A stretch of 64,000 nt of DNA from Natrononativus amylolyticus (GTDB lineage Archaea; Halobacteriota; Halobacteria; Halobacteriales; Natrialbaceae): assembly GCF_024362525.1 (NCBI RefSeq), contig NZ_CP101458.1:124001-188000 (forward strand), given 5' to 3'. Within the stretch, counting starts at the first letter, position 1. The number at the start of each line of letters is the position of its first letter. The notes under the pieces are model-generated. The model made no database searches. It was not told the DNA's origin and worked only from the letters and a program-made list of their open reading frames with translations. A program made the position numbers and the translations under genes. Of the stretch, positions 6,397 to 24,256 are shown one piece after another.

Positions 6397-7509
6397 GTGA
6401 CCGAGAAACGCGAATACAGAGGCGACTACCCCGACAGAACGCTGTACATCCCCGGCCCGACGGAGGTCCGCGAGGACGTCATCGAGGCGATGTGCGAACC
6501 GACGTTCGGCCACCGGAGCGATCGGATGACGGACCTGTACACCACGATCGTCGAGGACACGAGGGAGTTCCTCGACACCGACAACGACGTGATCGTCCTC
6601 ACGGGGTCCGGAACCGAGTTCATGGAGAGTTCGATCCTGAACCTCGTCGAGGAGACCGTCCTCGTGACGACCTGCGGCAGCTTCAGCGAGCGCCAGGCCG
6701 ACGTCGCCGAGCGCCTCGGGAAATCGGTCGACCGCCTCGAGTACGAGTGGGGACGGGCCGTCAAACCCGCGGACGTCCGCGAGGCCCTCGAGGAAGCCGA
6801 GACGGAGTACGACGCGGTCACCTGCGTGATGAACGAGAGTTCGACGGGCGTCCGGAACCCGATCGAGGAGATCGGCGACGTGGTCGCGGAGTATCCGGAC
6901 ACCTCCTTTATCGTCGACGCTGTCTCCGCGCTGGGTGGCGACTCCGTCGACATCGACGCCCACGGCATCGACGTCATCTTCACTTCGGTCCAGAAGGCGT
7001 TCGCCATGCCGCCCGGTCTCGCCGTGTGCGTCGTCAGCGAGGACGCCTACGAACGCGAGGTAGAGAGCGAGTCGGCGTCGTGGTACGGCGGCTTCCAGCG
7101 CTCGCTCGACTACTACGACCGGAAGGGCCAGACCCACTCCACGCCCGCGATCCCGGTGATGCTCGCGTACCGGACACAGATGAAACACATGCTCGAGGAA
7201 GGCCACGAGGCTCGAGACGAACGCCACCGCGAGATGGCCGAGTACACCCGCGAGTGGGCGAACGAGCACTTCGACGTGTTCCCCGAGGCGGGCTACGAGT
7301 CCCAGACGGTGAGCTGTATCGAGAACACGCGAGGGATCGACGTCGCTGAAACCATCGAGGCCGTCAGCGAGGAGTACGACATGGTGTTCGCGAACGGCTA
7401 CGGCTCGGATTTAGGCGAGGAGACCTTCCGCATCGGTCACATGGGCGAACACGACACAGAGAGCATCCGGGCGCTGACCGACGCCATCGAGGACGTCGCC
7501 GGGTTGTGA
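6397..7509 (+). CDS. Class V aminotransferase (alanine-glyoxylate / serine-pyruvate type)
   Basis: A 370-residue PLP enzyme of the alanine-glyoxylate/serine-pyruvate aminotransferase family. It has LYIPGPTEVREDV near the N-terminus, FGHRSDRM, TGSGTEFMESS for phosphate binding, an Asp in FIVDAVSALGG and the Schiff-base Lys200 in TSVQKAFAMPPG. The GTG at 6397 is chosen because an aggtgg ribosome-binding sequence lies just upstream and homologous proteins begin at this point. It likely transfers the amino group of alanine or serine to glyoxylate or a related keto acid. Its last 64 bp recur at 7722-7785. Confidence 0.9.
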   Translation: MTEKREYRGDYPDRTLYIPGPTEVREDVIEAMCEPTFGHRSDRMTDLYTTIVEDTREFLDTDNDVIVLTGSGTEFMESSILNLVEETVLVTTCGSFSERQADVAERLGKSVDRLEYEWGRAVKPADVREALEEAETEYDAVTCVMNESSTGVRNPIEEIGDVVAEYPDTSFIVDAVSALGGDSVDIDAHGIDVIFTSVQKAFAMPPGLAVCVVSEDAYEREVESESASWYGGFQRSLDYYDRKGQTHSTPAIPVMLAYRTQMKHMLEEGHEARDERHREMAEYTREWANEHFDVFPEAGYESQTVSCIENTRGIDVAETIEAVSEEYDMVFANGYGSDLGEETFRIGHMGEHDTESIRALTDAIEDVAGL

Positions 7510-7510
7510 G
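7447..7510 (+). repeat. Direct repeat, copy 1: 3' end of the aminotransferase gene
   Basis: These 64 bp encode the last ~20 residues (EHDTESIRALTDAIEDVAGL) and the stop. They match 7722-7785 at 63 of 64 positions; the single difference changes Val to Ala. Confidence 0.97.
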
Positions 7511-7721
7511 TCTGGTCACCGGTTGCGTTACCGCGAGCGAGCAGAGCGAGTGAGCGGGCCGACGACTGATGTGGAGAGCGCGGCGCTACGCGCCGCGACT
7601 AAGCGAACGGCGGAGCCGTGAGCTGAGGACGCTCCGCGTCCGGAACGGAAGGAGGAGTGCTTTTGGTCCAGCTTTTGCTGAGGGTCGCCGGAGACGGTCC
7701 GCAGCGCAAAAGGTGGGGGCC
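7511..7721. other. Hairpin-rich spacer between duplicated gene tails
   Basis: This 211-bp stretch separates the two copies of the aminotransferase tail. It contains gagcgagcagagcgag-type iterations, a perfect 8-bp stem with a tac loop (7579-7597), a 6-bp stem with a tcc loop (7627-7641) and a larger fold bounded by cttttgc (from ~7671) and gcaaaag (~7706-7712). A 71-codon frame from 7569 runs into copy 2 but looks non-genic (Arg-rich). The structure resembles a small palindromic insertion element rather than a gene. Confidence 0.6.
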
Positions 7722-7785
7722 GAACACGACACAGAGAGCATCCGGGCGCTGACCGACGCCATCGAGGACGCCGCCGGGTTGTGAG
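7722..7785 (+). repeat. Direct repeat, copy 2: displaced aminotransferase tail (gene remnant)
   Basis: A second copy of the aminotransferase 3' end, 275 bp downstream of the first and including the stop codon, with one substitution (gcc for gtc). The 275-bp offset is not a multiple of three, so the copies are in different frames. There is no room for the rest of the gene. It ends 15 bp before the convergent subtilase stop. Confidence 0.9.
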
Positions 7786-7799
7786 CCGGTCGACGACGA

Positions 7800-9200
7800 T
7801 TACCGAAACAGCTCGCGAAGGCGCTCGAGAATGCCCACGACCACGTCCACGAACCGCTGAAGCGCGGACGCGGCTCGGTCGAGTACGGACGCCGGCCCAC
7901 CGGTGATGACGCCGCCGTTCTCGCCGTCGGCCCCGCCACCGTGTTCACCCTCGCGCTCGCCGTCGTCGCCACTCGTCGCGCGGTCGTCGCTGACGGCCGC
8001 GCGGGCGTCCACGAGCCCGTGACCCTCTTCGCAGGTGCCGAGAACCGTCTCCGCCGTCTCGGCGAGCGTCCGCCGAACCGCTTCGTTCGGCCCCGGCCCG
8101 TCCGCCTCCACGCGCTCCCAGACCAGCGCCGCGACGCCGCTGACGAACGGGCAGGCGACGCTCGTCCCGTTCGCCTTGGCGTACTCGTTGCCGACGAACG
8201 TCGAGGCGACGTTCGTCCCCGGCGCCAGCAGCTCGACGGCGGAGCCGACGCTGCTGTAAGACGCCAGGGTGTCGTCCTCGTTCATCGCGGCGACCGCGAC
8301 GACGTCGTCGTGCGTGGCGGGGTAGGTCATCGTCTCCTCGTCGCAGGAGCCGTCCCCCGCGTTCCCCTCGTTTCCGGCCGCGGAGACGAGGAGGTGTCCC
8401 GCCGCGTGCGCGGCCTGGAGCGCCTCGTCCACCGCAGCGCTCTCGGTTTCGCCGCCGAGGCTCATCGAGACGATCTCCACGTCGTTCGACATGCACCAGT
8501 CGATTCCGGCGATCAGCTCGCTGTACCGTCCGCGTCCCCTATCGTCGAGCACCTTCACGGCGTACAGGTTCGCGTTCGGCGCCGCGCCCATCACGCCGAG
8601 GTCGTTGTCCGCCGCGGCGGCGACGCCGGCGACGTGGGTCCCGTGGCCGTGACGATCCTCGTAATCGGAGGACGGCCCGGAGGTCGTGAAATTTTGGCCA
8701 CCCGCGACCGAGAGGCTACAGTGATCGGTCTGGACCCCGGTGTCGAGGATGCCGATACCGACGCCCGTCCCGTCCGGGTCGACGTCGTCGGCGCCGATCC
8801 GCTCGTGGCCCCACGAGGCGCGCTGCTCCGGATGGGTGGAACAGTCCCCGCTGTCCGGGGGAAGCAACAAGTCGAGCAGGGACGGGCTCCACTCGTCGGG
8901 AATTCCCGTCTCGTCGTCCTCCTCGACGGACGCCACGCCGCTCGCGGCGAGTAGATCCTCCACTCGGTTCGCGGGGACCTCCGCGACCACGAAGTCGAAG
9001 TTGTCGTATTCGAGGACCGTCGTCCCGCCGATGGCCTCCACGACGCCGAGGAAGTCGCCGACTCCGTTTCGCGGATGGACGAACACCCTCCGAGTCTCCG
9101 ACGGTGTCGTCGTTCCCGATGCCGATCCCGAGACTCCGATCGCCCCCACGGCAACGCCGGCCCCGATACCCTGCAGGAGCTGACGACGACTGAGAGTCAT
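7800..9200 (-). CDS. Tat-exported subtilisin-family serine protease (S8)
   Basis: A 466-residue secreted endopeptidase. The N-terminus has a twin-arginine signal (SRRQLLQGIGAG, residues 4-15). Residues ~38-95 resemble an inhibitor-I9 propeptide. The catalytic domain shows Asp153 (ILDTGV), His186 (HGHGTHVAG), the oxyanion Asn277 (SAAGNEGN) and Ser347 (NGTSVACP). After the catalytic domain comes a Gly/Glu-rich linker and then an amphipathic helix at the extreme C-terminus (RFVDVVVGILERLRELFR) instead of the usual PPC-type domain. It converges on the aminotransferase gene. Confidence 0.95.
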   Translation of the reverse strand: MTLSRRQLLQGIGAGVAVGAIGVSGSASGTTTPSETRRVFVHPRNGVGDFLGVVEAIGGTTVLEYDNFDFVVAEVPANRVEDLLAASGVASVEEDDETGIPDEWSPSLLDLLLPPDSGDCSTHPEQRASWGHERIGADDVDPDGTGVGIGILDTGVQTDHCSLSVAGGQNFTTSGPSSDYEDRHGHGTHVAGVAAAADNDLGVMGAAPNANLYAVKVLDDRGRGRYSELIAGIDWCMSNDVEIVSMSLGGETESAAVDEALQAAHAAGHLLVSAAGNEGNAGDGSCDEETMTYPATHDDVVAVAAMNEDDTLASYSSVGSAVELLAPGTNVASTFVGNEYAKANGTSVACPFVSGVAALVWERVEADGPGPNEAVRRTLAETAETVLGTCEEGHGLVDARAAVSDDRATSGDDGEREGEHGGGADGENGGVITGGPASVLDRAASALQRFVDVVVGILERLRELFR

Positions 9201-23695: not shown

Positions 23696-24256
23696 ATGAC
23701 GGATCCGAAGGACACCATCAACATCGAAAACGTGGTGGCATCGACCGGTATCGGACAGGAACTCGATCTCCAGAGCGTCGCGATGGACCTCGAGGGAGCC
23801 GACTACGACCCCGAGCAGTTCCCCGGGCTCGTCTACCGAACCCAGAACCCCAAGTCCGCGGCGCTGATCTTCCGGTCGGGGAAGATCGTCTGCACCGGCG
23901 CGAAGAGCACCGACGACGTCCACGAGAGCCTCCGAATCGTCTTCGACAAGCTCCGCGAACTCCAGATTCAGGTGAACGAGGACCCCGAGATCGTCGTCCA
24001 GAACATCGTGACCAGCGCGGACCTGGGGCGCAACCTCAACCTGAACGCGATCGCGATCGGGCTCGGCTTAGAGAACATCGAGTACGAACCCGAGCAGTTC
24101 CCCGGGCTCGTCTACCGCCTCGACGACCCCGAGGTCGTCGCCCTGCTGTTCGGCTCGGGTAAACTCGTCATCACCGGCGGGAAGAAGCCGGTCGACGCCG
24201 AACACGCCGTCGATAAGATCGTCTCGCGACTCGAGGACCTCGGCCTGCTCGAGTAA
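23696..24256 (+). CDS. tbp: TATA-box-binding protein
   Basis: A 186-residue general transcription factor that binds promoter TATA elements and recruits TFB. It consists of two direct repeats of about 90 residues, each containing the diagnostic EQFPGLVYR (~41-49 and ~132-140) and the A..LIF.SGK...TG or VALLFGSGK element. The acidic tail after the second repeat is short. Haloarchaea often carry several TBPs; this chromosomal, single-promoter copy looks like a housekeeping one, though that is inference. Confidence 0.97.
   Translation: MTDPKDTINIENVVASTGIGQELDLQSVAMDLEGADYDPEQFPGLVYRTQNPKSAALIFRSGKIVCTGAKSTDDVHESLRIVFDKLRELQIQVNEDPEIVVQNIVTSADLGRNLNLNAIAIGLGLENIEYEPEQFPGLVYRLDDPEVVALLFGSGKLVITGGKKPVDAEHAVDKIVSRLEDLGLLE

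Follow-up and report, generated by a model that had tools for sequence, protein, structure and literature searches.

The window is the whole stretch of DNA that was analysed, 64,000 nucleotides from Natrononativus amylolyticus, and positions are counted from its first letter. The locus comprises a class-V aminotransferase gene, a spacer of 211 bp and a convergent subtilase gene (Table 1). The tail of the aminotransferase gene is present twice in direct orientation, with a spacing of 275 bp and 66 of 68 positions identical. The first-pass annotation had described a recurrence of the last 64 bp of the gene with one mismatch. This was confirmed, as the sole difference between 7447-7510 and 7722-7785 (63/64) is T at 7496 and C at 7771. 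Among exact direct repeats with a spacing below 1 kb, none in the whole 64-kb window is longer than the 50-base core of this repeat (7446-7495). Because the runners-up with such spacing reach only 29, 24, and 21 bases, the tail repeat is far beyond chance. A 29-base exact direct repeat with a spacing of 279 bases was noted at 23810-23838.

In copy 1 the aminotransferase gene has its functional 3' end, in frame and with TGA at 7507-7509. Copy 2, which is non-coding, is a remnant of the gene tail in its native position, and about 15 bp separate its end from the stop codon of the convergent subtilase. Orthologues of the aminotransferase with 80-89% identity were found at 80 haloarchaeal loci. The protein did not reach any NCBIfam equivalog cut-off; the best matches, BhcA-like and PhnW-like, stayed below. 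Subtilase orthologues lie 3' of the same aminotransferase at 18 other loci (some genomes counted twice), and the subtilase is the native downstream neighbour of the gene in many relatives.

Table 1. Features of the aminotransferase/subtilase intergenic region in the window
Feature	Position	Strand	Basis
Class-V aminotransferase gene, GTG start, 370 codons + TGA	6397..7509	+	Open frame; Pfam PF00266 Aminotran_5, E=1.4e-20
Tail copy 1, end of the aminotransferase coding sequence with its stop codon	7443..7510	+	66/68 identical to 7718-7785
Left linker from stop codon to element, GTCTGGTCACCGGTTGCGTTACC	7510..7532	+	Same 23-base length and partly similar in Halopiger goleimassiliensis (L023/L129)
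Conserved core of the structured element: long-range closing helix and two internal hairpins	7554..7667	+	Model R1, 127 bits, E=2.6e-29; covariation (57 homologues); no Rfam match
Right end of the element: U-rich GTGCTTTTGGTCCAG and terminal hairpin, arms CTTTTGC / GCAAAAG	7658..7717	+	Sequence
Tail copy 2, repeat of the gene tail without an attached open gene	7718..7785	+	Repeat comparison; native position in empty-site comparisons
Convergent subtilase (peptidase S8) gene	7800..9200	-	Pfam PF00082, E=3.7e-51

The spacer contains the perfect stem-loops and the CTTTTGC/GCAAAAG arm pair that had been noticed in the first pass, the former being GCGCGGCGC/GCGCCGCG, ACGGC/GCCGT, and GGACGC/GCGTCC. 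The minimum free energy of the spacer was unexceptional for its composition (z = -1.2), and the folding-energy score was set aside as uninformative; the case for structure is carried by covariation across relatives. The consensus of the element runs from GCGGGCCGACGACYGAYGTGG through one or two hairpins to GGAACGGARGGAGGAGTGCTTTTGRT. Beyond this comes a terminal hairpin that varies between copies, with CTTTTGC/GCAAAAG as one example of its arms. Most other element copies have an equivalent of this right-end hairpin, and there it often adjoins the next gene directly at its stop codon. In an alignment of 57 copies, which had been fitted to the model, 97.4% of the cells of a 27-pair structure were paired. 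Two-sided changes were found at 18 of the 27 pairs compared with 2-5 when the partners were slid by 1-3 columns, and the covariation score was 0.179 compared with 0.012-0.058 in the slid controls. The closing helix, which joins both conserved ends, showed the coherent changes UA to CG, GC to CG, and GC to UA. At several of its positions G-U predominates when the + strand is read (GU 45, GU 48, UG 30). A fold of the opposite strand would have mismatches at these places, so it is probably the + strand that folds. Together with the strong covariation, the frequent G-U pairs point to an RNA with secondary structure read from the + strand, and transcription of the element on this strand appears most likely. 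As a first guess, its role could be that of a structured element marking 3' ends or gene boundaries where genes converge.

Many element copies (L091, L094, L002, and others) are extended on the left by an additional module, GGCCGGGAG - hairpin - CCCGGGGGAGGGCAGGC. This module is missing from the copy in the window and may belong to the same RNA as the core. Several genomes (L023, L094, L105) have extra small palindromes within the hairpin loops, which look as if they take up further hairpin repeats.

To follow the spacer beyond the locus, its interval was used as a query. It recurs alone, without the tail, at further places in its own genome, and matches were obtained in 124 of 125 genomes of the family, a count to which the gene tail itself contributes. 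From 15 sequences a covariance model of the element core (R1) was built, and it gave 17 matches in the window genome at E ≤ 0.01, of which 11 were at E ≤ 3e-5. Uniqueness of the spacer, which the first-pass annotation had named as fatal to its reading, was not observed: at E ≤ 1e-4 the family was present in 214 of 293 Halobacteriales genomes, the weak matches in GC-rich genomes possibly including chance hairpins. In a phylum-wide sample the matches were confined to Halobacteriales (15/148 genomes), and strong matches (above about 50 bits) came mostly from Natrialbaceae. The window spacer is thus one copy of a dispersed, structured intergenic element found throughout the Halobacteriales.

The copies are mostly intergenic and adjoin many other gene 3' ends. 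With a rough codon-bias gene call, a minus-strand gene was located to the right of the element in 28 of 40 copies, and convergent flanks were the commonest arrangement. Similar copies stand behind thermosome and Lrp-like genes in different genera, which argues that many of them are old and conserved in position. A known structured RNA family was ruled out as the identity of the spacer: none of 16 element loci gave a match at gathering score in Rfam 15, and positions 7300-7900 of the window gave none even at E ≤ 1. Literature searches turned up no account of the element, and its conserved words were absent from the papers of the library searched. An integrated virus or plasmid was rejected as the source of the spacer, as phage records held no match to it; two partial, unannotated matches were obtained on plasmids (Haloterrigena, Natrinema). 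Eight viral contigs with a 19-base word of the element were dismissed as chance hits, their sequence being unrelated and the rest of the element absent.

The orthologous gene 3' end was surveyed at 80 haloarchaeal loci and in 120 of 125 Natrialbaceae genomes, the window genome included. The order tail/element/tail is a real, recurrent arrangement. It was found behind the gene in 6 of the 120 genomes, belonging to six different genera, and the element sits between both tails in every one. Identity of the two tails was 63/64 and 66/68 (97%) in the window, 91% in G112 (L119), 39/40 (97.5%) in G105 (L120), where copy 2 is cut to 40 bases, 88% in G028 (L139), 89% in G096 (L140), and 64/64 (100%) in Natrinema mahii (G062; L141/L039). 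G096 has an additional 24-base tail remnant before the element, as read by eye. Three other genomes, G031 (L130), G007 (L020), and Halopiger goleimassiliensis (G011; L129), have the element directly 3' of the gene with no second tail; in H. goleimassiliensis it is interrupted on its right side.

The carriers are scattered in the gene tree, and the nearest gene relative of each is without the arrangement. A single clade of carriers was not recovered in any bootstrap tree, while the strongly supported branches alone are still compatible with a single origin. The window tails have private variants in common, and of 200 tails none is closer to copy 2 than copy 1 of the same genome, which fits a recent duplication or gene conversion. 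Homogenisation is not universal, since the tails of G028 differ by 12% and have different closest sources, copy 1 matching the sister species and copy 2 matching Natrinema tails. For G028, a simple chimera (gene from Haloterrigena, downstream region from Natrinema) was considered and not adopted, because its subtilase is closest to that of Haloterrigena salina (90% versus 89% for N. versiforme).

Related genomes without the insert, which had been proposed as a check, do exist. In the same-genus pair G112/G111 (L119 versus L136), the gene is 95% identical as far as 4 bases beyond the stop, and copy 2 plus the next 630 bases align with the empty site without interruption, at 90% identity. The same pattern was seen at 78% for N. 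mahii and N. versiforme (L141 versus L047). In both pairs, copy 1 and at most 5 further bases are followed by the element and then by copy 2, which is joined to the native flank (about 650-700 bases). The extra DNA therefore consists of the element and one tail, and it is copy 2 that keeps the native flank.

The two copies have different boundaries. Copy 1 runs on from the gene without a break, whereas copy 2 begins abruptly at a gene position 67-75 bp ahead of the stop, where microhomology of a few bases (TGGG) is possible. At this junction ACG or CCG stands where genes read ACATGGG or ATATGGG (TCTACGTGGGC). The change is common to G112, G105, G028, and N. mahii; the copy-2 start TCTACGTGGGCGAACACG is shared by the first three and slightly altered in N. 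mahii. None of 181 scored coding tails had the junction change, all of them reading ATGGG. The pattern occurred in 4 of 392 Halobacteriales genomes, every one of them a carrier, the G105 version being shortened. As these shared changes are non-coding and were never seen in coding tails, the four junctions probably derive from one event. The window junction (AAAAGGTGGGGGCCGAACACG) is without the TCTACG signature of the other carriers and may represent a separate, independent event.

To see whether duplication accompanies the element elsewhere, 33 element-bearing loci were compared with themselves, a comparison that would miss duplications below 11 bp. The only duplicated flanks were those of the N. 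mahii copy at the same gene (L109); close-set repeats at L115 and L002 were unconnected to any gene tail. The expectation from the first pass that the hairpin spacer would recur at other gene 3' ends, each with a duplicated tail, was thus borne out for its position and failed for the tails. Tail duplication is not a property of the element, since the copies at other genes occur without it. The 211-bp spacer is non-coding and encodes no enzyme, no terminal inverted repeats pair its two ends (all hairpins are internal), and no short target duplication was seen at the element.

The aminotransferase gene end has also been duplicated around other DNA. In Natrialba hulunbeirensis and Natrialba sp. 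SSL1 (L178 and L180, the same as L014 and L011), a 2.19-kb insert with a lipoprotein-like and a secreted-protein ORF lies between the gene and a second tail of 115-127 bp, about 2.2 kb 3' of the aminotransferase. In G094 (L223) and G095 (L224), the aminotransferase tail recurs beyond the subtilase as a degenerate 140-bp copy with frameshifts, which suggests an earlier insertion of the subtilase itself behind this gene. No integrase was recognised in the inserts of Natrialba (L178), G094, and G095, whose ORFs were read by eye. In Natronobiforma cellulositropha (L069:4087-6200), a tandem duplication of 1,056 bp, 90% identical, starts in the last 27 bases of the gene, and in H-GB1-1 (L022) 35 bp of the tail, stop codon included, are duplicated in tandem, with the element absent. 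Away from the gene, repeats of 45-130 bp were few in 633 kb of loci plus the window, other matches being mostly 250-370 bp; this is a partial control, as the loci were centred on the aminotransferase gene. The best reading is that this gene end is a recombination hotspot, with support that is partly biased by the gene-centred loci.

We consider it rather probable that the locus is a composite of a working gene end, an element copy, and a relic tail, formed by homology-anchored joining, after which the tails would have served as homology arms. Incoming DNA with a gene tail and the element would pair with the resident gene along the tail that both have conserved; illegitimate rejoining inside the resident tail would then leave both tails behind. 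Donor DNA with the cassette could then enter other lineages through ordinary homologous recombination, while recombination between the two tails would delete the element and leave the gene intact. The patchy distribution, the shared junction, and the within-genome similarity suggest that gene conversion keeps the copies alike in some genomes; in the polyploid Haloferax volcanii gene conversion is efficient (PMC8223754). Judged from the sequences compared, one origin, spread by recombination between lineages with the tails supplying homology, and repeated loss would fit best. Gain and loss probably proceeded through recombination between gene tails rather than by a transposon. Against this explanation stand the deviating window junction, possibly an independent event, and the instability to be expected of 64-bp direct repeats at a spacing of 275 bp. 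The earlier suggestion that a C-terminus could be supplied by either copy is reasonable in mechanism for the window, as tail recombination would restore an intact gene, but the truncation to 40 bases in G105 indicates that copy 2 is not maintained for this purpose.

The first-pass annotation had proposed an element inserting at the gene end while regenerating its target, or else a recombination product that swapped the tail. A MITE-like or enzyme-moved element that created a 64-74 bp target duplication would explain why occupied sites equal empty sites plus element and tail, exactly as after insertion and duplication, and why duplicated lengths are alike (64-75 bp) and positions near-identical in six genera. 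It is nevertheless quite unlikely, because the tested element copies elsewhere have no duplicated tails, the spacer has neither inverted termini nor an encoded protein, and the conserved positions behind the thermosome and Lrp-like genes in several genera are unlike recent mobility. Target duplications of 64-74 bp are also untypical of known transposases. Moreover, several carriers share a derived junction across genera, which points to common descent and recombination rather than to a fresh insertion each time. The recombination product that had been offered as the alternative fits better, given the shared junctions and the tail-free copies elsewhere. Inheritance from a Natrialbaceae ancestor that already had tail/element/tail, with conversion preserving six cases and repeat recombination removing the rest, would account for the shared copy-2 junction and for sister species that lack the arrangement and have an otherwise similar gene, and it could draw on the same efficient gene conversion in haloarchaea (PMC8223754). 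It would require very many losses (114 of 120 genomes are without the arrangement), direct repeats so close are not expected to last, and the window junction differs; we regard it as unlikely.

Slippage during replication could have duplicated tail and element in tandem locally, with later loss of the second element and no gene transfer. Element-free tandem tails are indeed known at this gene (the 35-bp and 1,056-bp units at L022 and L069), and the near-identical window copies must be recent or homogenised. Such a history is very unlikely, as each case would need a second, precise deletion and the junction common to several genera would be left unaccounted for. Least probable of all is a remnant of an integrative element, with the aminotransferase 3' end as attachment site and the tails as attL and attR. 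A repeated 3' end that keeps the gene intact is what such integration would produce, and other cargo (the 2.19-kb insert and the subtilase) is flanked by tail copies at the same gene. Yet no recombinase gene was present among the inserts read, the spacer had no match among phage records, the insert is a dispersed chromosomal repeat, and the duplicated lengths vary from 27 to 141 bp. An exact 24-mer of one common tail version was absent from 2.9 million viral contigs (IMG/VR).

REP, ERIC, BOX, and similar sequences are dispersed palindromic intergenic repeats of prokaryotes. Like them, the element is short, non-coding, multi-copy, intergenic, hairpin-forming, and frequent near gene 3' ends. It differs in its larger core (63-115 nt), its covarying long-range closing helix and conserved single-stranded motifs, and its restriction to Halobacteriales in the sample. 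For immunity gene arrays of the Vibrio T6SS, homology-facilitated illegitimate recombination that leaves orphan downstream gene parts has been proposed (PMC5361080). The arrangement described here likewise has a conserved anchor, new cargo downstream, and the old 3' piece kept behind the cargo; the kept piece, however, is a tail of 64-75 bp and not a gene, the cargo is non-coding, and the mechanism is a proposed one. Tyrosine recombinases integrate mobile elements at gene 3' ends, a subject that has been reviewed (PMC8371274). A duplicated 3' end flanking an insert with the gene kept intact resembles such integration, whereas the lack of integrase or mobile-element genes, the variable duplicate length, and the missing tail 24-mer in viral contigs do not. 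MITEs occur in haloarchaea, Haloquadratum walsbyi among them (PMC3119063). The element resembles these in being a small non-autonomous repeat in a haloarchaeal genome, but the inverted termini and short target duplication of MITEs were not seen at it.

A more far-reaching proposal is put forward tentatively, as a possibility that we would not call probable: the element would be a new, order-wide haloarchaeal structured RNA at gene ends, and tail/element/tail a passive cassette moving between genera by homologous recombination via its own tail copies. An abundant intergenic element with strong covariation across Halobacteriales is missing from Rfam 15. If it is transcribed, it would be a new archaeal RNA class, and its role at gene ends is directly testable. 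The duplicated tails around unrelated inserts point to a possible transposase-free route for gain and loss of downstream DNA in haloarchaea that leaves the gene intact, and this is relevant to the part that recombination between genera plays in the shaping of archaeal genomes.
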